A DNA stretch of 64,000 bases from an uncultured Rubrobacteraceae bacterium. GTDB lineage: Bacteria > Actinomycetota > Rubrobacteria > Rubrobacterales > Rubrobacteraceae. The translations under genes and the position numbers were made by a program. The number at the start of each line of letters is the position of its first letter. Position 1 is the first letter of the stretch. Under the pieces are notes generated by a model that saw only the letters and a program-made list of their open reading frames with translations, ran no database searches and was not told the origin of the DNA. Below are positions 50,319 through 59,828 of the stretch, one piece after another. The DNA is taken from assembly GCA_902806085.1 (NCBI GenBank), contig CADCVH010000073.1, forward strand, positions 1-64,000. Reading direction: 5' to 3'.

Positions 50319-50728
50319 CCTTCCGGGCCCCTCCCGATGTCGCGCGTGCCCCGGAGCCGCTCGCGCGTCTCGCGCACCTTTCTCCGCAGCTCTTCGGACC
50401 TCTCCGCGTCGCCGGCGAAGCCCTCCGGGTCCCCGGGCTCGACGCCGCTCGACACGTCCCGCAATCGCGGGCCGGCGGTGGCCGCGTTCGTGGGGGGCGC
50501 CTCCGGCTCGGGATTGGGAGGGCGGCGGCCCTCGCGGGAGGCGGCCACGCGCTCGCGCATCCCCTCCTGGGCCTCGAAGTAAGATTCGCGCCCGCGCTCG
50601 CGGGCTTCACCGGCGCGGTCCGCGAGGGAGCCCCGCAGTTCCCTGCCGCTGCGGGGGGCGAGGAGCACGCCCGCCACGAGCCCCGCGGCCCCGCCGACCA
50701 GGAACGTTCTCAGCCGTCCTTTATCCAC
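50315..50728 (-). CDS. YtxH domain protein
   Basis: This 137-residue protein opens with a glycine-rich helix FLVGGAAGLVAGVLLAPRSGRELR, the YtxH signature. A long charged Glu/Arg region of coiled-coil character follows. YtxH proteins are stress-related and membrane-associated, but their biochemical role is unknown. GTG 50728 has AGGAGG upstream. The bases TTATCCACA over its start codon match a DnaA box, probably by chance. Confidence 0.82.
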   Translation of the reverse strand: MDKGRLRTFLVGGAAGLVAGVLLAPRSGRELRGSLADRAGEARERGRESYFEAQEGMRERVAASREGRRPPNPEPEAPPTNAATAGPRLRDVSSGVEPGDPEGFAGDAERSEELRRKVRETRERLRGTRDIGRGPEG

Positions 50729-50760
50729 ACCTCTGCCTCCTCGTGGGCCTTTCGGGTATT

Positions 50761-51744
50761 CTAACCGCTTTCGGTTCGGGAGATCGGGATGCCCTGGCGC
50801 GGGGTGTCCGCGCCCATCAGGAGCGGGGAGGTCCGCCGTTCGGCCCTCTCGGCGATCCCCGAGACGCGGTTCGCCACGATCTCGACCACCTCATCCGAGG
50901 TGTTCTCTATGGAGAGGTTCTCGACCGCGTTGACGCCGGCGCGGCCCGCGCTCTCGACTATGTAGTCGTGGATCTGGCGTATCTGCTGGAAGTGGCTTAT
51001 GTACTCCTCCGCCGGCCGGCGCATCGCCGTGCCCATGGCCCGGATGTAGAACCTGGAGCGGTGGACGTTCTCGTCGGAGAGGTGGACCACGAGCGTGCAG
51101 ACGTTCGGGTGATCCAGGTATCGCTCGGGAATGATCTCCGGCACCAGGTGAACCCCCTCGACGACGAGGTTCGTCCCCTCCTTGAGCCCCCGCTCCACGA
51201 TCGCCTCCACCCCGACGCAGACCCTCGCCGTCTGCTCCCTGAAACCGAAGAGCACGGCTTCGTCCTCGTCGACCGGCACCCGCACGTCCTGGCGCTTGAT
51301 CTCGTAGGAGCTCTTGTGCAGGATCGGCAGCAGGTCGGGGCTGATGGCGTGGCGCAGGACCTCCCGGATGGAGTCCGTCCCGACGACGCTCTGGATGTTC
51401 AACCGCCTGGCCACGTCCGCCGCGAGCGTGCTCGTCCCGACGCCCGTGGCGCCCCCGATCAGGACCACCACGGGCTCGCTGGACTCGCGCAGGATGCGCC
51501 ACTTGTCCAACCTGCCCACGGCGATGGCGTCCTTCCTGACGAGCTTGTCCCGGACGCGCGCGAGGACCTCTTCCTCCTCGACCGTGAAGCGCTGCTCGGC
51601 CATCAGCTCGGCGCGGACCTCGCTCGCTATCTGGTGGGACAGCTCCGGGCCCGCGCCCGCCTGGGCCAGCGTCTGGGCCAGAATGCCGCGGGAGAACGGG
51701 GTCTGGCGCCCGCCCTTGACGATGGTGATCTCACGTTCCTCCAT
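50761..51744 (-). CDS. 2-phosphoglycerate kinase-like protein with ATP-cone domain
   Basis: This 327-residue protein has an N-terminal ATP-cone-like segment (about 5-90, IVKGGRQTPFSRGILAQTL). A P-loop kinase domain follows, whose nucleotide loop reads GGATGVGTST (about 96-105), with Thr where Walker A usually has Lys. Downstream motifs are VGTDSIREVLRHAI, EGVHLVPEIIPERYL and SRFYIRAMG. The overall pattern is that of archaeal-type 2-phosphoglycerate kinases (2PG to 2,3-diphosphoglycerate). The bacterial role is unclear. ATG 51744 has GGGAGGG upstream. Confidence 0.78.
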   Translation of the reverse strand: MEEREITIVKGGRQTPFSRGILAQTLAQAGAGPELSHQIASEVRAELMAEQRFTVEEEEVLARVRDKLVRKDAIAVGRLDKWRILRESSEPVVVLIGGATGVGTSTLAADVARRLNIQSVVGTDSIREVLRHAISPDLLPILHKSSYEIKRQDVRVPVDEDEAVLFGFREQTARVCVGVEAIVERGLKEGTNLVVEGVHLVPEIIPERYLDHPNVCTLVVHLSDENVHRSRFYIRAMGTAMRRPAEEYISHFQQIRQIHDYIVESAGRAGVNAVENLSIENTSDEVVEIVANRVSGIAERAERRTSPLLMGADTPRQGIPISRTESG

Positions 51745-51771
51745 GGCGCCCTCCCAAGGGAACCGACGACC

Positions 51772-52344
51772 CTAGTCGCCGAGGATGCGCAGGCCCCCGA
51801 ACTTCCTCCCCCGCCGCTTCCTGATGCGAGCGTAGAAGAATAGCAGAAACGCCACGAGCAGTACCGGCAAGAGGGGCACGAAGAGGGCCAGAATTCCGCC
51901 CACCAATGCCACCGCGTCTTCGATCAGGCTGAGAAAAGAAGTGGACACCCCGGAAGAGGCGTCCCGCGCCGGTGGTCGCAGCAAAACCTTGAGCACGGCG
52001 ACGACCCCCGCCACGATTCCGCCCGCGACGAGCCACGGCACGGCGTCCGCAGCCACACCCGAAGCGAGGCCGAACAGCAGCGCGCCCGACGCGGCCCTGA
52101 TCGGGACCATGATCCAGTTAAAGACGCGTTCTATCGCCCGGATTTTATCCAGCACGATCTCCAGGATCGATAGACCCGCCAGGCCCCCAAAGAGGGCCCA
52201 CTCGTTCACCGCGACGCCAGGCGCCGAGAGATCGAACACCCCAAGAGCGGCGAACAGCACGGACAGCGCAGGCAACAGAAACGCCCTCACCCCCGCCACG
52301 GAGGCGAGGCCTACGCCAAGTCCTACTGCAAGCAAAATTTCCAT
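51772..52344 (-). CDS. DUF4126 membrane protein
   Basis: This 190-residue protein starts [25 protein letters not shown], with four to five hydrophobic segments ([36 protein letters not shown] and others) and a basic C-terminus. ATG 52344 lies six bases after a perfect TATAAT, so the longer ORF start at 52377 is rejected and the message is probably leaderless. The family function is unknown. Confidence 0.85.
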
Positions 52345-52350
52345 GCCGAC

Positions 52351-52356
52351 ATTATA
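52351..52356 (-). promoter_or_regulatory. -10 box of the DUF4126 gene (leaderless)
   Basis: A perfect TATAAT on the minus strand is followed by six bases and ATG 52344. TTGAAG lies 15 bases further upstream, so it is a slightly short promoter. This is the clearest leaderless case in the window. Confidence 0.75.
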
Positions 52357-52537
52357 CCTGTGGCAGATAGGCTTCAAGGCCGGCGAACTGCCCCGAAGAG
52401 GCGAACCTCGCGGCGCTCGGGGTGGGTCAGGTAGCGGTTCGCCGGACGGCCCTGGTTGCCCCGATCCCCGTTTACCTCTAGGCTATACTTGCTCAAATTC
52501 GTGGCGTGTACGCCGCAAAAGATCCGGAGGATTGAAC

Positions 52538-53920
52538 GTGTCGCAGGCCGTTACGATGGAGAAAGTTGTCGCCTTTTGCAAGCGCCGGGGCTTCGTGTAC
52601 CAGAGCTCGGAGATCTACGGCGGCCTCCGGTCCTCTTACGATTACGGCCCCTTGGGCGTCGAGATGAAGCGGAACATAAAAGAGGAGTGGTGGCGGAGCA
52701 CCGTCCACATGCGCGACGACGTGGTGGGCCTGGACGCGGCGATTATCATGCACCCCAAGGTGTGGGAGGCCTCCGGGCACACCGCGACCTTCAACGACAT
52801 GCTCGTCGAGAGCCGCACCAGCAAGCGCCGCTACAGGGCCGACCACCTCATCGAGGACGCCACCGGAATCGACGCCGAAGGGCTGAGCCCCGAGGAGCTG
52901 ACGAAGATCATCCAGGAGGACGACCGGGTCAAGGACCCCGTGGACGGCGGGCGGGACTTCGCGCCGGTGCGCCCCTTCAACCTGATGTTCGAGACGTACA
53001 TGGGGCCGGTCAAGAGCGAGGAGAACCTGGCGTATTTGAGGCCGGAGACGGCGCAGGGGATCTTCGTGAACTTCAAGAACGTGACCCAGACGAGCCGGGT
53101 GAAGGTGCCGTTCGGCATCGCGCAGCAGGGCAAGTCCTTCCGAAACGAGATCACGCCCGGCAACTTCATCTTCCGCACCCGCGAGTTCGAGCAGATGGAG
53201 ATGGAGTTCTTCGTCGAGCCCGGCACGGACGAGGAGTGGCACGAGTACTGGATCGAGCAGCGCTGGAACTGGTACCTGAACCTCGGCATCAAGGAGGAGA
53301 ACCTCCGCCGCTACGAGCACCCGCGGGAGAAGCTCTCCCACTACTCCAAGCGCACGGTGGACATCGAGTACAACTACCCGTTCGCCGGCTGGTCGGAGCT
53401 CGAAGGCGTTGCCAACCGCACGGACTACGACCTCAAGCAGCACGCCGAGCACTCCGGCGAGAGCCTGGAGTACATAGACCAGGCGACCAACAAGCGCTAC
53501 TACCCGTACGTCATAGAGCCCGCCGTCGGACCGGACAGAATAATGCTCGCCTTCCTCATGGACGCCTACACGGAGGAGGAGATAGGCGGCGAGGAGCGCA
53601 CCGTCTTGAAGCTCCACCCCCGCATCGCCCCCACCAAGGCGGCCGTCTTTCCGCTCTCCAAAAAGCAGCCCGTCTCGACCATAGCGCGCGAGCTCTACGA
53701 TGACCTCAAGGGGGACTACCGGCTCTTCTACGACGACTCGGGCTCCATCGGCCGGCGCTACCGGCGCCAGGACGAGGCCGGCACCCCTTTCTGCGTCACG
53801 GTCGACTTCGACACCATCGAGGACAGGCAGGTGACCATCCGCGACCGCGACACGCTAGAGCAGGAGCGCGTCCCGATAGAAGCGGTGCGGGACAGGTTGA
53901 AGGCTTTGATCTCGGGCTAG
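52538..53920 (+). CDS. glyS: Glycyl-tRNA synthetase (class II, single-chain)
   Basis: This enzyme charges tRNA-Gly. The 460-residue product is the single-chain alpha2 type. It has [18 protein letters not shown] near the start, motif 2 ([21 protein letters not shown]), [12 protein letters not shown], motif 3 region ([17 protein letters not shown]) and the anticodon-binding domain at the C-terminus. GTG 52538 has GGAGG seven bases upstream; the ORF track extends the frame back to 51941, through the DUF4126 gene, which is not credible. A TATACT at about 52483 is a possible -10. Confidence 0.97.
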
Positions 53921-53957
53921 CTTGGCTTCGCGCGTGGGGCATCGGGAGAGGTAGGGC

Positions 53958-54410
53958 GTGCCGGTCGAGGTGATCGGAATAGACCACGTCTTCGTCGCGG
54001 TGCGCGACATGGACGCGGCGACGGAGTTCTACGACCGCGTGATGCCCGTCCTCGGCTTCAGGCGGGGCGACGGAAGCCTCGGCGGAGACCCCCACGTCTT
54101 CTACTACGGCCGTCAGCTCGTGTACGCGTTGAGGCCGGCGAAAGAGGGCACAGCGGACCACGATCCCTACGCCCCGGGCCTCCACCACCTCTGCTTCAGG
54201 GTGGTGGACGAGGAAGCCGTGGACCGGGCCGCCGGCGAGCTCGTCGAAGCGGGCGTCGAAGCGACGCCGCCCCGCTACTACCCGGAGTACGGTCCCGACT
54301 ACTACGCCACCTTCTTCGAGGACCCCGACGGGATACGGTTGGAGGTCATGAACTTCCGGGAGCTCAGGCGCAAGATCATGTACGACTGGGAGGCGGGGGC
54401 CGGCCGTTAG
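53958..54410 (+). CDS. VOC family (glyoxalase-like) protein
   Basis: This 150-residue vicinal-oxygen-chelate protein has metal ligands in IDHVFVAV, LHHLCFRV and GIRLEVMNF (His, His, Glu). The two beta-alpha-beta-beta-beta modules are complete. The specific reaction (lyase, dioxygenase or resistance-type) cannot be assigned. GTG 53958 has GAGAGGTAGG upstream. It follows glyS on the same strand. Confidence 0.85.
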   Translation: MPVEVIGIDHVFVAVRDMDAATEFYDRVMPVLGFRRGDGSLGGDPHVFYYGRQLVYALRPAKEGTADHDPYAPGLHHLCFRVVDEEAVDRAAGELVEAGVEATPPRYYPEYGPDYYATFFEDPDGIRLEVMNFRELRRKIMYDWEAGAGR

Positions 54411-54608
54411 GGAACGCCTCTCGTCTCTCTGAAGCACCCCGGATCGCGCCGCCGTCTAGCTTTCTCGCCGGGACGTTCGAGGCGGCCCGGCGTTGCGCGA
54501 GAGATCTAGTTCACACGCGGCTTCGGCCGTCGTCCCTGGAATCCTGTTTCTGCTGGTACAGTCCGCGTGAGAAACCCACCAAACCCTAGCAAAGGAACAG
54601 TAAAGATC

Positions 54609-55208
54609 ATGGATATCGCCGTGCTGGCACAACTCCTGTCTTCCCTTGGCACCCTCGTCGTTGCGTCCGGGATCCTCTACCAGGGCAGGCAAGCGCGCAA
54701 GGCGCGCGACGACACGGACCGGCCGCAGATCATAGTCGACGCGGACTACACCGGGCGCTTCACCACCAACATAGTGGTGCGCAACATCGGGAACGGGACG
54801 GCCAAGAACATCACGTTCGAGTTCTCGGCGCCGCTTGAGAGCACGAGCGGGTACGACATCACCGAGCTGCCGTACTTCAAGCACGGCATAAACTTCATGG
54901 CCCCGCAGACGGACCTCCCCGCCGTCTGGGACTCGTACCAGAACGTGGTGCAGAACCTGAGGGACAAGGGCCTGACGAAGGGCATCACGATCACCTCGAA
55001 GTACCAAGACCGCAACGGAGAGCCGTACGAGACCGAGTGGACCATAAACCCGCTGCTGCTCGAAGGGAGCGGCTACTCGGACTACAAGGGTTACGAGGAC
55101 GAGGTGCAGGCCCTGCAGGACCAGGCGAGGGCCATGGAGCAGATCTCCGAGGACCTCAAAGACCTCAAAGAGGCCGCGGGCCATCGACTCGACGAACGGG
55201 TGAGCTAG
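54609..55208 (+). CDS. Membrane-anchored protein of unknown function
   Basis: This protein of about 199 residues starts MDIAVLAQLLSSLGTLVVASGILY, one N-terminal helix. A beta-rich domain follows (PQIIVDADYTGRFTTNIVVRNIGNGTAKNITFEF) and then an acidic helical tail. It resembles the uncharacterised single-helix proteins with an immunoglobulin-like domain found in many bacteria. TACAGT at 54557 may be its -10; ATG 54609 has AAAGGA upstream, while the ORF-track start 54567 falls about at the expected transcription start. The composition is less GC-rich than its neighbours. Confidence 0.68.
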   Translation: MDIAVLAQLLSSLGTLVVASGILYQGRQARKARDDTDRPQIIVDADYTGRFTTNIVVRNIGNGTAKNITFEFSAPLESTSGYDITELPYFKHGINFMAPQTDLPAVWDSYQNVVQNLRDKGLTKGITITSKYQDRNGEPYETEWTINPLLLEGSGYSDYKGYEDEVQALQDQARAMEQISEDLKDLKEAAGHRLDERVS

Positions 55209-55276
55209 GCAACCCGGACCGGCCCCCGGCCGTACCGGCGGCAGGCGCCGCCGAGAAAAACGAACGCGCCGACAAA

Positions 55277-55306
55277 GCGGAGCCCCCGCAGAGACGGGGG
55301 CTCCGC
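55277..55306. terminator. Bidirectional hairpin between convergent genes
   Basis: GCGGAGCCCCC and GGGGGCTCCGC form a perfect 11-base stem with an 8-base loop. It lies between the convergent stops at 55208 and 55327, so it can serve both genes. Confidence 0.8.
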
Positions 55307-55326
55307 CAGAGTCTGCTCCGGGCCGG

Positions 55327-56760
55327 TCAGCCGGTCAGCTCGACCGGGTTCCGCCAGCCGTCGAGCGCCTCGCGGCGGGGGATCAGGTGCTCTTCCGGCG
55401 TCCCCTGATCCTCGAGGAACCCTATGGCGTCTTCGCAGAGGGCCTCGCCCTCTCCGGGGCGGCTGCGCCAGACGTTGTTCGTCTCCCCAGGGTCGGTGCG
55501 GAGGTCGTAGAGCTCGGGCTGGTCGTTCGGGCCGCCGAGGATCGCGGAGCGTTCGCGGGTGGTTACGGTGAAGGGCATGTAGCTCGCGACCTTGCGGGGC
55601 GTGGAGTCGACGGCGGTCGTGATCTCCCCCTCCGCCATGTACAGCGGCCACGAGCTGACCACGAAGGGCCGGTGCTCGCTCTTGTGCCCGGTGAGCACGC
55701 CGCCGAAGGACTCGCCCTTCATCGTCATCGGGTTGGCGAGGCCGGTGAGGTCGAGGATCGTGGGCGCTATGTCCGGGGCCGTGGTCATGGCGTGGCGGTG
55801 GCCCGGCGTGAGGCCGGGGCCTCGGGCTATCAGGGGGATGCGGCTGATCTCGTTGTACAGGGGCGACCACTGCACCGTGAGCAGCCACGACTCGGAGAGC
55901 CAGGCCGGCAGGTTCGAGCCTTCCGAAACGGCCGCTTCGGGCTCGTGGACCCACTCGGCCTTGCCGAAGTAGTCGTGCTCCCCGAAATAGAAGCCGTGGT
56001 CGGTGGTGAAAATCACGATGGTGTTATCGCGCAGGTTCAGCGCGTCGAGCTTGCCGAGGAAGCGCCCGATCCAGAAGTCCACCATCGTGACCTCGCCGCA
56101 GTACGTCGCGTGCGCGAGCTCGACGTCGTCCTCCGTGAGCCCCGCCTCCCGCCAGTTGCCGTAGGCGGGGTAGATCTGCTCCCCTTCGAAACCCTCCCGG
56201 TACTGCTTCGTGTAGTAGTCCGGCGCGTCCCAGGGCTCGTGCGGGTCCCACGTGTCCACGTACAGGAAGAACTGCTCGTCGTGGTGCCGCTCCAGCCACC
56301 TCTCGGCCTCGGTCATCGTCCGGGCCACGAGCCGGTCTTCCTCCCTCGTCCACGTCGAGCGCGCGTCGGCCCTCTCGTGGGGCCTTGTGTCGTCCCCCTG
56401 CCCCCTCACCCAGATGAAGTCGTCGAACCCCCGATCGTAGCCGAACCCGTTCCTGACATAGAACGGCGTGTCCACAACCCCCATCGTCGTGTACCCCGCA
56501 CCCGACATGACCTCGGGCAGCGTCGTCAGGTGCCGGGGCAAGGGCTCCCAACCCATGTGCGTGTACGAGAACGTCCCCGTCAGGACGTCCGCCCGCGCCG
56601 GCATCGTCGGGAACGACGACGCGACGTGGTGGTCGAACACCGCCGACTGGCGGGCGAACGCGTCCAGGTAAGGGGTCTTGATATAAGGGTTCCCGTATGC
56701 CCCGATGTGGTCCCGCCGGAAGGTGTCCGCCACGATCACCACGACGTTCGGTCGATCCAT
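55327..56760 (-). CDS. Sulfatase-fold hydrolase with Thr in place of the catalytic Cys/Ser
   Basis: This 477-residue alkaline-phosphatase-superfamily enzyme starts MDRPNVVVIVADTFRRDHIGAYG. The usual C/S-x-P-S-R...TG motif reads T-M-P-A-R-ADVL-TG (T52), so the residue converted to formylglycine in true sulfatases is Thr. Other metal and active-site motifs are present (FTTDHGFYFGEHDYFGKAEWVHE, DTWDPHEPW). A Thr nucleophile is known in phospho-transferring members of the superfamily, so it may be a phosphodiesterase rather than a sulfatase. ATG 56760 has GGAGGAAG upstream; no signal peptide is visible. Confidence 0.86.
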   Translation of the reverse strand: MDRPNVVVIVADTFRRDHIGAYGNPYIKTPYLDAFARQSAVFDHHVASSFPTMPARADVLTGTFSYTHMGWEPLPRHLTTLPEVMSGAGYTTMGVVDTPFYVRNGFGYDRGFDDFIWVRGQGDDTRPHERADARSTWTREEDRLVARTMTEAERWLERHHDEQFFLYVDTWDPHEPWDAPDYYTKQYREGFEGEQIYPAYGNWREAGLTEDDVELAHATYCGEVTMVDFWIGRFLGKLDALNLRDNTIVIFTTDHGFYFGEHDYFGKAEWVHEPEAAVSEGSNLPAWLSESWLLTVQWSPLYNEISRIPLIARGPGLTPGHRHAMTTAPDIAPTILDLTGLANPMTMKGESFGGVLTGHKSEHRPFVVSSWPLYMAEGEITTAVDSTPRKVASYMPFTVTTRERSAILGGPNDQPELYDLRTDPGETNNVWRSRPGEGEALCEDAIGFLEDQGTPEEHLIPRREALDGWRNPVELTG

Positions 56761-56877
56761 TCTTCCTCCAGCTAACTCGTCTCGTAATCCAACGGGGCGA
56801 TACCCTACAATATACTCCACTCAATTGCTAGACAAACTTATGAAATCCACAAGAAAATATGTCGGGTGGCCCACGCG

Positions 56878-57105
56878 CTACACGCTGTGCGTTGGGATAT
56901 CGTGGGTTAGACGCAGAGAGAATCCCACTTGGGGAAGCGTGAGCAGGTGGTAGCCCAAACGGTGCGGGTCGTCGTTGACCAGGCGCTCGATGGCGACCGA
57001 GCCCTCAGAACCCCGGATACTGAACGGTATCCTCAGCTTGCCTTGTAACCCCGAAGCGGTGCAAGACCACTCCCGCATAGTCACGCCCGTAGCCCATTCG
57101 CCCAT
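56878..57105 (-). CDS. Possible 75-residue orphan ORF (low confidence)
   Basis: A minus-strand frame reads REWSCTASGLQGKLRIPFSIRG and VAIERLVNDDPHRLGYHLL, which has protein-like composition. The local GC content is lower than in neighbouring genes. There is no clear ribosome site and no family is recognised. It may be a small foreign gene or the remnant of one. It lies between the sulfatase-like gene and the DUF4260 promoter. Confidence 0.25.
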   Translation of the reverse strand: MGEWATGVTMREWSCTASGLQGKLRIPFSIRGSEGSVAIERLVNDDPHRLGYHLLTLPQVGFSLRLTHDIPTHSV

Positions 57106-57131
57106 CTCCGAGAAAAAGTCGCCTCACACCA

Positions 57132-57175
57132 TTGACAAAACTAATGTCGTTAGTATATAACTACCTCAGTTAGTA
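57132..57175 (+). promoter_or_regulatory. DUF4260-tetR promoter with TetR-type operator
   Basis: TTGACA (57132-57137) is followed 16 bases later by TATATA or 18 bases later by TATAAC. ACTAA-N5-TTAGT (57140-57154), an inverted repeat, lies inside the spacer. GTTAGTA occurs again exactly 20 bases downstream (57149 and 57169), two helical turns apart. This is the layout expected for a repressor such as the adjacent TetR protein. Confidence 0.68.
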
Positions 57176-57213
57176 AATCGGGCGGGACGAGGTTCCGCGG
57201 AGAGGAGCAGATC

Positions 57214-57636
57214 ATGGAATCGGCGATGGACCAGAGGCAGCGAGAGGAACGGGCGATGAACAGGACTTCCGGGCCCCTTTCTTGGACGCGTCCGGCGGCG
57301 ATGCTGAGGGCCGAGGGGGCGGCCATGCTGGCCGGTGGTGCGGCGTTGTACTGGCTCAACGGGGAGAGCTGGTGGTTGTTCGCGCTGCTGCTCTTGGCCC
57401 CCGACGCGTCGATGGCGGGCTACCTGGCGGGTCCGAGGGTCGGGGCGGCCCTCTACAACGTCTTCCACTCCTATCCGTTGCCCGCCGCCTTGGGGATCTT
57501 CGGTCTCTTGGCGGGGGCTCCGCTCGCCGTTGGTGTCGCCTCGGTGTGGTTCGCGCACATCGGAATGGACCGGATGTTGGGCTACGGCCTCAAGTACGGG
57601 AGCGGTTTCAAGGACACGCACCTCGGGCGGGTGTAG
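57214..57636 (+). CDS. DUF4260 membrane protein
   Basis: This 140-residue membrane protein has about four helices, with RAEGAAMLAGGAALYWLNG, PDASMAGYLAGPRVGAALYNVFHSYPLP and HIGMDRMLGYGLKYGSGFKDTHLG, the DUF4260 signatures. The function is unknown. ATG 57214 has GAGGAG six bases upstream. It is the first gene downstream of the TetR-type operator and is followed by tetR on the same strand. Confidence 0.88.
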   Translation: MESAMDQRQREERAMNRTSGPLSWTRPAAMLRAEGAAMLAGGAALYWLNGESWWLFALLLLAPDASMAGYLAGPRVGAALYNVFHSYPLPAALGIFGLLAGAPLAVGVASVWFAHIGMDRMLGYGLKYGSGFKDTHLGRV

Positions 57637-57680
57637 GGTTTCCGTGGAGGATGTTCCGACATGGACCGAGGGGTTCGGGC

Positions 57681-58268
57681 ATGCCTAGGGCGGGTTTGAA
57701 TCGGGCGGCGGTGGTGGAGGCGGCCGCCACCCTGGTTGACGAGGAAGGGGCGGGCGAGGAGCTCTCGCTCGCCCGTCTCGCGGAACACCTCGGCGTCCGC
57801 AAGCCCTCGCTCTACAACCACGTCTCCGGGATCGGCGACTTGCGGCGCGAGTTGGCCCTCGCGGGTCTTCGTGAGTTGGGACGAAGCCTCTCCCGCGCCG
57901 CCCTCGGCAGGGGGGGCGAAGAGGGTCTTTTCGCGCTCGCGGAAGCGTACCGTAGCTTCGTCAAAGAGCGGCCGGGGCTCTACGAAGCCACCGTCAGGTC
58001 TTACCGGCTCTATGCTCCCAACGACCCGGGGTTGGGGGCGGCCGAGGGGGAGACGCTGGAGCCGGTGTTGGCCGTGCTCGACTCTCTCGGCCTCCGTGAA
58101 GAGGAGGCCATCCACGCGGCGAGGGGCCTGAGGAGCGTGGCCCACGGCTTCGCCACGCTGGAGAAGGCCGGGGGCTTCGGCATGGATGTGGACCAAGACG
58201 AGAGCTTCCGAAGGCTGGTGTGCGCGTTCGTCGACGGGCTTTCCGGAAGACCGCCGTCCGGGATTTAG
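57681..58268 (+). CDS. TetR family transcriptional regulator (TetR_C_33/WHG type)
   Basis: This 195-residue regulator has an N-terminal TetR helix-turn-helix (SLARLAEHLGVRKPSLYNHVSG, about 32-53). The C-terminal ligand domain (LREEEAIHAARGLRSVAHGFATLE) resembles the WHG type. I use ATG 57681 with GAGGGG upstream; the ORF-track start 57282 lies in the DUF4260 gene. It probably represses its own two-gene unit through the operator at 57140-57175. Confidence 0.9.
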   Translation: MPRAGLNRAAVVEAAATLVDEEGAGEELSLARLAEHLGVRKPSLYNHVSGIGDLRRELALAGLRELGRSLSRAALGRGGEEGLFALAEAYRSFVKERPGLYEATVRSYRLYAPNDPGLGAAEGETLEPVLAVLDSLGLREEEAIHAARGLRSVAHGFATLEKAGGFGMDVDQDESFRRLVCAFVDGLSGRPPSGI

Positions 58269-58462
58269 CGAGGCTCGGGGGCGTGGCCGCCCGGTCCAGC
58301 GCCGGGCGGCTCTCGCGGTTCCGCAAGAACCTGTACGGCTGTCCGAGACGCCGAGCGGACGCCGCCGAGCAGGCGCAGGGCGACGCCCTGCTCGTCCGCG
58401 ATCGCGGCCACGCGCCGGGCCTCTTCGACCACGTCCGAACACCGTCCGTTGGTTTCTTGCAT
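58265..58462 (-). pseudogene. Truncated nucleotidyltransferase-like remnant
   Basis: The frame from ATG 58462 reads MQETNGRCSDVVEEARRVAAIADEQGVALRLLGGV, matching the N-terminus of nucleotidyltransferase-fold proteins. The frame then loses similarity. A shifted frame (RNRESRPALDRAATPPSLA) may hold the eroded continuation. With only about 35 meaningful residues it cannot be functional. AGGAG lies upstream. It is just after the glycine-betaine-type binding protein gene. Confidence 0.5.
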
Positions 58463-58467
58463 CGCTC

Positions 58468-59385
58468 CTACCCTTCCTCGGCCCGACGGGCGGCCTCGAT
58501 CCAGGGCCGCACCGCGTCCCGGTTCTCCGACTCCTCCAGCCAGTCGCGCACGCCGTCGTCCACTTCCCTCTCCTCGTCCACGGCCTCGTTGATCGCCACC
58601 TCCAGGGAGCCGACCTGGGTGGCGTCCAGCCTCACGGCGCTTATGAGGGCGTGGGCGACGGGGTCGTCTTCGGCAAAACCCTCGCGGGCCACGGTGTGGA
58701 GCGTCTGGGGGTCGTCCGCCGTGCCCAGGGCGTTCTTCGGGTCCTCCAGGTAGCGGAAGTCGTACTCCAGGTTCATCCAGTGCGGCGACCAGGCGACGAA
58801 CACGAAGGGCTCGCGCATGGCGTAAGCCTTCTGGAGCTCGACGAGCATCGCGGGGGTGCTCGCCTCCACGAGCCTGAAGTCCAGGTCGTACCGCGGGAGG
58901 GCGTTGCGGCTGATCTTCTCCATCAGCACGGCACCCGGCTCTATGCCGGTGATCATGCCCGGCTCGGTGGACTTGAGGTCGCCTATGCTGTCGATGCCTT
59001 CCATGTAGCGGGGGACGGCGACCCCGAAGACGGTCTCCCCCTCGTACCAGGGCTCCCGGTGGACTTCCACCCGGCTCCCGGCCCTGTCGACGTACTGCCG
59101 GTGGTTCGGCATCCAGGCGTCCATGAAGACGTCCGTCTCCCCCTCGGCCACGCCCCTGAAGACCTCGGGCACCTTCTCCGCGCGCTTTAGCTGCACGTTC
59201 TCGTAGCCGAGGTCCTCCTCCAGGAGAACGCGGACAAGGTTGGAGTTCGCCACGTTCTCGTCCCAGGCCAGGTAGCCGAGCGTGACCTGTTTCAGCCCGC
59301 CCAGGCCGCAACCGGCCGGCAGGACGACGAGCGCCACGAGCACCACGCCGACGAACAAGGCCCGAAGCCCCCGCACGCTCCTCAC
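58468..59385 (-). CDS. Glycine betaine/choline-type ABC substrate-binding lipoprotein (OpuAC/ProX)
   Basis: This 305-residue binding protein has a signal peptide ending at lipobox Cys26 (VLPAGC). The OpuAC fold carries VTLGYLAWDENVANSNLV, TDVFMDAWMPNHRQYVD, EPWYEGETVFGVAVP and FVFVAWSPHWMN. It includes aromatic and Trp residues that form a quaternary-amine cage. No permease or ATPase gene is next to it. GTG 59385 is used. It should capture compatible solutes at the membrane surface. Confidence 0.9.
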   Translation of the reverse strand: MRSVRGLRALFVGVVLVALVVLPAGCGLGGLKQVTLGYLAWDENVANSNLVRVLLEEDLGYENVQLKRAEKVPEVFRGVAEGETDVFMDAWMPNHRQYVDRAGSRVEVHREPWYEGETVFGVAVPRYMEGIDSIGDLKSTEPGMITGIEPGAVLMEKISRNALPRYDLDFRLVEASTPAMLVELQKAYAMREPFVFVAWSPHWMNLEYDFRYLEDPKNALGTADDPQTLHTVAREGFAEDDPVAHALISAVRLDATQVGSLEVAINEAVDEEREVDDGVRDWLEESENRDAVRPWIEAARRAEEG

Positions 59386-59752
59386 GCCCCCGCCCCGCGA
59401 CGCGGCCGTCCAGGCCCGTGAGATCCCGCGCCCTTCCGATACCGCCGCCCGAAAACCACCGGACGGTAATCGAACCGGACGATCGGGGCCTCTCCCAGTT
59501 CTCCTCTTTACGTGGCCTCTCCTCCGTCAGCCCGCTACGTGAGCTCGCGCCACCCACCGCCGCCCTTCCAACCGCCGGAACGGAGATGCATGCAACCCGC
59601 TTATCCTGTCAACCCTACCCGGATGTGAACGGCAGCATCATACGCCGTCCCCCCACCCCATTCAACTAAAGGGGCGCACGAAACGCACCCCCCACAAAAC
59701 CTCCGGCGGCGGTGGCAGCCCCGCCCTCCCCACGATAAACTACCCGAGCCTT
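59386..59752. other. Intergenic region before tRNA-Arg
   Basis: Nothing beyond ordinary intergenic sequence is recognised. ORFs covering parts of it on either strand are short and lack ribosome sites. A promoter for the tRNA is not obvious. Confidence 0.4.
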
Positions 59753-59828
59753 GCGCCTGTAGCTCAGGGGATAGAGCATTGGTTTCCTAAACCATGTGTC
59801 GGAGGTTCGAATCCTTCCAGGCGCACCA
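59753..59828 (+). tRNA. tRNA-Arg, anticodon CCT
   Basis: The acceptor stem GCGCCTG pairs with CAGGCGC. The D arm (GCTCAGGGGATAGAGC), anticodon loop TTCCTAA (anticodon CCT, reading AGG) and T arm (GGAGGTTCGAATCCTTCC) are all standard. The 3' CCA is encoded. It is 76 bases including CCA. Confidence 0.97.

Follow-up and report, generated by a model that had tools for sequence, protein, structure and literature searches.

Which reaction can a protein of the sulfatase fold catalyze if threonine stands where its relatives carry the cysteine that is modified to formylglycine, and which substrate does it act on? The question is raised by P0002, encoded in the window, a 64,000-nucleotide stretch of DNA from an uncultured Rubrobacteraceae bacterium. 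The initial annotation had placed Thr at the nucleophile position, regarded the remaining motifs as intact and expected a chemistry other than formylglycine catalysis. The gene, its ribosome-binding site and the codons of the active-site residues are listed below with the evidence in brackets; SmCS denotes the choline sulfatase BetC of S. meliloti (PMC5870055).

55327..56760, minus strand: Thr-type PF00884 enzyme P0002, 477 aa plus stop codon (intact ORF, profile match, AlphaFold2 model)
56765..56769, minus strand: GGAGG, Shine-Dalgarno-like ribosome-binding site (sequence)
56725..56727, minus strand: D12 codon, metal ligand (alignment; Asp14 of SmCS)
56605..56607, minus strand: T52 codon, presumed nucleophile, opening helix 52-61 at its N-terminal end (alignment and model)
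56593..56595, minus strand: R56 codon, conserved signature Arg (54/54, 10/10 and 6/6 rows)
56470..56472, minus strand: D97 codon, replaces the active-site Lys of Cys-type sulfatases (alignment)
56239..56241, minus strand: H174 codon, half of the putative leaving-group acid pair (alignment; His201 of SmCS)
55996..56001, minus strand: D254 and H255 codons, metal ligands (alignment; Asp296/His297 of SmCS)
55960..55962, minus strand: K267 codon, other half of the acid pair (alignment; Lys309 of SmCS)

P0002 matches the Pfam profile PF00884 (Sulfatase) with 168.6 bits (cut-off 25) and the C-terminal domain SGSH_C with 43.5 bits. Since it stays far under the cut-off of all NCBIfam equivalogs, it falls outside any named family; weak similarity was seen to CptA, EptA and LtaS. 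The 477-residue protein starts with MDRPNVVVIVAD, which already forms the first core strand, and a hydrophobic N-terminal helix is absent from both sequence and model, with no evident membrane domain or signal peptide. The accepted AlphaFold2 model, obtained from a 70-row alignment (pLDDT 91, pTM 0.92; a run on 24 near-identical orthologs with pLDDT 63 was discarded), has the sulfatase/phosphonate-monoester-hydrolase fold. Its top Foldseek matches in the PDB are S1/arylsulfatases, phosphonate monoester hydrolases (PMHs) and SmCS with TM scores of about 0.67-0.72, many S1 sulfatases being matched with probability 1.00; LtaS/EptA transferases were not among these top matches.

The signature of P0002, FPTMPARADVLTG (residues F50-P51-T52-M53-P54-A55-R56-A57-D58), places T52 in the column that holds Cys in the seven aligned Cys-type paralogs of the same genome, which contains about 20 PF00884 matches in total. 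In the model, T52 is the first residue of helix 52-61, where members of the superfamily are expected to have their nucleophile. About 25 Rubrobacteraceae orthologs (68-97% identical) all carry Thr here, as does every one of the 54 rows that make up the wider clade, so that a sequencing or annotation error can be dismissed. The initial annotation was thus right about this position, and the aligned residue is T52 rather than another Ser or Cys. A nearby alternative nucleophile was rejected, as no Cys neighbors the aligned column and S48 and S49 lie upstream of T52 and vary across the wider clade; a lone local point mutation was likewise rejected for a residue that is invariant across phyla.

ThrS, as we label the Thr-type PF00884 gene in neighborhood descriptions, is present in 28 of 40 genomes of the class, with orthologs in most Rubrobacteraceae. 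A contig scan retrieved relatives with 40-48% identity from Chloroflexota, Armatimonadota, Poribacteria and from Thaumarchaeota-labelled and Desulfococcaceae records, with Thr wherever the position could be aligned; the scan was biased toward Thr because one of its two patterns contained the Thr motif, the other (DTWDPHE) being free of it. In a maximum-likelihood tree calculated with the motif columns excluded, all Thr/Ser rows stand apart from the Cys rows with a support of 95, the Cys side being long-branched, and P0002 groups with a clade in sulfur-gene context (99) nested in the Rubrobacteraceae clade (100). As far as the alignments tell, Thr in place of Cys is a fixed feature of an uncharacterized multi-phylum branch. 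The substitution is therefore real but extends well beyond this gene. Thr is already a documented residue in PF00884, where 30 of the 59 sequences in the Pfam seed carry it (PMC5066984). Our literature search on Thr-type S1 sulfatases yielded nothing past the SulfAtlas remark on Thr, and we found no description of a soluble sulfatase-like branch that combines TxPxR with Asp for Lys and a choline context.

Residues were compared in 54 clade rows, 10 paralogs and 6 Cys-type rows and then in proteins phylum-wide. Both types, Thr and Cys, carry D12, R56, H174, D254 and K267, each residue deviating once at the most, and all Thr-type rows have H255. The metal ligands D12, D254 and H255 are thus conserved as previously annotated, but the claim of otherwise intact motifs does not extend to the GK-x-H motif of the Cys types, which is changed to V-D97-T-P in P0002, Lys giving way to D97 and His to P99. 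The D97 column holds Asp in all 64 Thr/Ser rows of the branch (62 Thr and 2 Ser), whereas Cys rows have Lys (31/32) or, in one case, Glu; in a further three Thr proteins, which are longer and of another kind, the residue is Ser. The pairing of D97 with K102 of SmCS is taken from the multiple alignment, HMMER pairwise alignments shifting it by one residue. On this alignment evidence, the active site is altered as a unit, with a clean split between Thr/Ser-with-Asp and Cys-with-Lys. In SmCS, the retained equivalents are the metal ligands and His201-Lys309, which protonates the leaving group, and His104 contacts formylglycine (PMC5870055). As P0002 keeps the metal ligands and the acid pair and has lost Lys102/His104, we infer that the residues serving formylglycine were lost with it. 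Conservation of T52, R56, H174, K267 and the metal ligands across phyla points to strong selection on the active site. As the initial annotation expected, P0002 probably does not rely on formylglycine chemistry. D97 or D172 could conceivably hold a second metal ion.

The absence of an adjacent sulfatase maturase was confirmed: PF03781 (FGE) has no match on the window's contig and three elsewhere in the genome. The best of these shares contig C30 with a Cys-type sulfatase (C30:9777 and C30:4478), the FGE-family gene lying about 4 kb from it (G000:C30:4478-10625), which suggests a functional formylglycine maturation in this organism.

P0002 shares the one-metal ligands and the His-Lys acid pair (D12, D254, H255, H174, K267) with S1 formylglycine sulfatases but has neither a convertible Cys/Ser in C/S-x-P/A-x-R nor the Lys/His of GK-x-H. 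Within S1, it has in common with BetC (SmCS, PDB 6fny) the fold, the one-metal Asp/Asp/His site, the signature Arg, the equivalent of the His201-Lys309 leaving-group pair and, for the gene in clades I and II, a position ahead of choline oxidation genes; it differs in its nucleophile (Thr instead of Cys/formylglycine), in D97 and P99 for Lys102-x-His104, and in its score against TIGR03417 (82.8 bits, cut-off 433). PMHs/PehA (PDB 2w8s, 2vqr, 4uph) are among the closest folds, share the xPARA signature and one metal and, like P0002, are devoid of the sulfatase Lys/His pair. However, PMHs use formylglycine where P0002 has Thr and D97, and P0002 reaches 105.7 bits against PehA (NF045661, cut-off 900). 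The NPP family, which belongs to the same alkaline-phosphatase superfamily, uses a Thr/Ser nucleophile and two zinc sites, whereas H174 and K267 of P0002 align with the sulfatase-type acid pair and its PF01663 match is weak (29 bits). One NPP, ENPP6, is a choline-specific glycerophosphodiesterase with a choline diester as substrate (PMC4757880).

The gene neighborhood gives an indication of the substrate. Locus genes were called with a simple codon-usage script that may miss starts. Near the gene, the window contains:

58471..59385, minus strand: OpuAC-type substrate-binding protein (best NCBIfam match choline ABC binding TIGR03414, 116 bits, below cut-off)
57301..58265, plus strand: two small genes, of 111 aa and of 190 aa, the latter a TetR-type regulator (gene calls)

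Rubrobacteraceae ThrS copies occur in four neighborhood types. In type I, ThrS is followed by a GbsB-type choline dehydrogenase (NF053866; 626 and 633 bits, cut-off 550) and an aldehyde dehydrogenase. An IclR regulator, a sarcosine-oxidase-like DAO protein, GcvT and formate-THF ligase (FTHFS) are usually nearby, and often also a divergent operon of a nucleotidyltransferase-like gene (assigned by eye), a metallophosphoesterase and an APC permease. Each of the 13 above-cut-off GbsB genes of the class shares the strand of ThrS and is separated from it by no more than about 100 bases. In type II, ThrS precedes a GMC oxidoreductase resembling the choline dehydrogenase BetA (318-361 bits, under cut-off) and an aldehyde dehydrogenase; GMC and aldehyde dehydrogenase neighbors score under the choline/betaine equivalog cut-offs, and on contig C80 of P0002's own genome, G000, the ThrS-GMC pair is followed by the contig end. 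Type III, which includes P0002, comprises a choline-type binding protein, the nucleotidyltransferase-like gene, metallophosphoesterase, APC permease and ThrS. Of these neighbors only the binding protein (58471-59385) remains in the window, where the genes at 57301..58265 occupy the slot of the relatives' permease, metallophosphoesterase and nucleotidyltransferase-like genes; an OpuAC-type binding protein also adjoins the ThrS operon in loci L054, L055, L133 and L140. Type IV is the sister clade of P0002 (75-78% identical) and has sulfur genes alongside, namely for a transporter of the TauE family and for sulfotransferase/ATP-sulfurylase proteins. A BetC-like siting beside choline-to-betaine oxidation genes is thus seen in clades I and II, while the window copy has the choline-type binding protein only. 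Chloroflexota copies have mixed neighbors (ABC importer, amine oxidase-like protein, LIV-binding protein); a PLP decarboxylase beside them was discarded as a substrate clue because it is diaminopimelate decarboxylase and uninformative. Neighbor clusters read from the opposite strand, clusters 1 and 2 among them, were rejected as antisense shadow ORFs.

Since two non-homologous candidate choline oxidases are encoded directly downstream of ThrS, choline is the product that we assign to the enzyme, and P0002 is probably a Thr-nucleophile hydrolase that releases choline from a choline ester. From the computed fold, the conservation of the named residues, the co-segregation of Thr with Asp and the choline-pathway context of the orthologs, we infer catalysis, the substrate and the roles of T52 and D97 as follows. 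P0002 would belong to the sulfatase/phosphonate-monoester-hydrolase branch and act in the cytosol as a hydrolase with a single metal and with unmodified Thr instead of formylglycine. One divalent metal bound by D12, D254 and H255 would lower the pKa of T52, which would attack the P (or S) atom of the choline ester, with R56 and the metal positioning the non-bridging oxygens. The departing choline would be protonated by the H174-K267 pair, and the Thr-ester intermediate would be hydrolyzed by water activated by D97, which replaces the formylglycine-specific Lys/His. The freed choline could then be oxidized to glycine betaine, an osmoprotectant. Regarding the ester, we lean towards a phosphate ester of choline, either glycerophosphocholine or phosphocholine, choline-O-sulfate being a close rival: phosphate is favored by the Thr-nucleophile precedent and the metallophosphoesterase neighbor, sulfate by the type IV genes, the BetC-like slot and a less positive pocket. 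The mixed neighbors of more distant relatives and the below-cut-off scores of the GMC and aldehyde dehydrogenase neighbors speak against the choline reading, and the substrate of P0002 itself could have shifted because its own copy has no adjoining choline-oxidation genes and its sister clade has sulfur genes.

The sulfate version, in which the same enzyme would release the same product from choline-O-sulfate via a sulfo-threonine at T52 that is formed and turned over, is a tentative alternative. We know of no Thr-based sulfatase, and the Thr/Ser members of the superfamily known to us act on phosphorus, which counts against it, as does the metallophosphoesterase gene in the neighboring operon. 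On the other hand, 7 of 10 sister-clade loci contain TauE and 6 of 10 contain a sulfotransferase gene, an ATP-sulfurylase gene or both. Choline (clade I) and sulfate (clade IV) would correspond exactly to what choline-O-sulfate yields on hydrolysis. In the choline pathway, ThrS would also stand in for BetC; no BetC (TIGR03417) above cut-off was found in 61 genomes in a search run without a positive control. Furthermore, the loss of Lys and gain of Asp should disfavor dianionic phosphocholine. Repeated turnover on choline-O-sulfate has been described for choline sulfatase with its Cys unmodified (PMC6189696), and weak additional activity on phosphorylcholine for the modified enzyme (PMC5870055), which indicates that both esters are close in this fold. 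A formylglycine-independent S1-type sulfatase that hydrolyzes choline-O-sulfate with a Thr nucleophile and Asp for the active-site Lys is thus a possibility to which we give less than even weight. If it holds, sulfate monoesters can be hydrolyzed in the sulfatase fold without cysteine-to-formylglycine modification, and formylglycine is no longer a strict requirement for class I sulfatases.

Several observations concern the sulfur genes themselves. In L057:5459-7549 (equivalent to L141:10099-12093 of Rubrobacter marinus), a single ORF fuses Sulfotransfer_5, PUA_2 and ATP-sulfurylase and adjoins the Thr-type enzyme, and in L056 and L080 sulfotransferase and ATP-sulfurylase are separate adjacent genes. 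No informative PDB relative was found for the Sulfotransfer_5 protein. An assignment of L141 genes as CysDN was rejected, as they encode 3-hydroxybutyrate dehydrogenase and acetoacetate-CoA ligase.

It is unlikely that P0002 hydrolyzes another small ester or diester and that its choline neighbors reflect coincidence or inherited synteny. Although the Chloroflexota neighbors are mixed and the context has changed in the P0002 clade and its sister clade, GbsB adjoins ThrS in 13 of 13 cases and, in another lineage, a non-homologous oxidase of a choline-dehydrogenase-containing family takes the same slot. A phosphotransferase that shifts a phospho-alcohol group between lipids or glycans without hydrolysis is considerably less probable still. 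LtaS/EptA/MCR are PF00884 proteins with one metal and a Thr nucleophile and therefore share nucleophile and metal site with P0002, in line with the weak NCBIfam similarity. But they are membrane anchored and act on lipids, whereas P0002 has no anchor and no close sequence or fold match among them, its fold matches being soluble S1 sulfatases and PMHs and its neighbors catabolic enzymes. A catalytically dead sulfatase relative, suggested by the replaced canonical nucleophile, is the least credible reading given that the metal ligands, R56, H174, K267 and T52 are kept across phyla.

For the choline-ester hydrolase, the present findings suggest that Rubrobacteria obtain choline and betaine via an enzyme in BetC's place. 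A multi-phylum 'sulfatase' branch mislabelled by generic annotation thereby gains a concrete and testable function, and the linked Cys-to-Thr and Lys-to-Asp exchanges provide a marker that divides Thr-type from formylglycine-type proteins in the examined set.

Further copies and relatives were encountered. Contig C111 (L133, same bin) is a syntenic repeat of window positions 50517-59826 with 86-92% DNA identity; because it also duplicates a gene read as glycyl-tRNA synthetase, it probably stems from a co-binned second strain or relative and was left out of the true paralogs. Frameshifts split one Thr-type copy each in R. marinus (L075:7944-9441) and G006 (G006:C1:1256879-1258311, L140), both of which keep another full-length copy. 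Clusters of several PF00884 proteins in L096 and L089, including a distinct Y-T-Q-A-S-F type, adjoin a gene matching the ATP-sulfurylase/sulfotransferase protein. Finally, the genome of P0002 (G000) harbors a second Thr/Ser-type PF00884 clade with the motif P-T/S-I-x-A-R-R on contigs C108, C115, C129, C10 and C1 (loci L009, L015, L016, L013, L014 and L012); as its Ser members have Asp at the D97 position, their Ser may be direct-acting rather than a formylglycine precursor.
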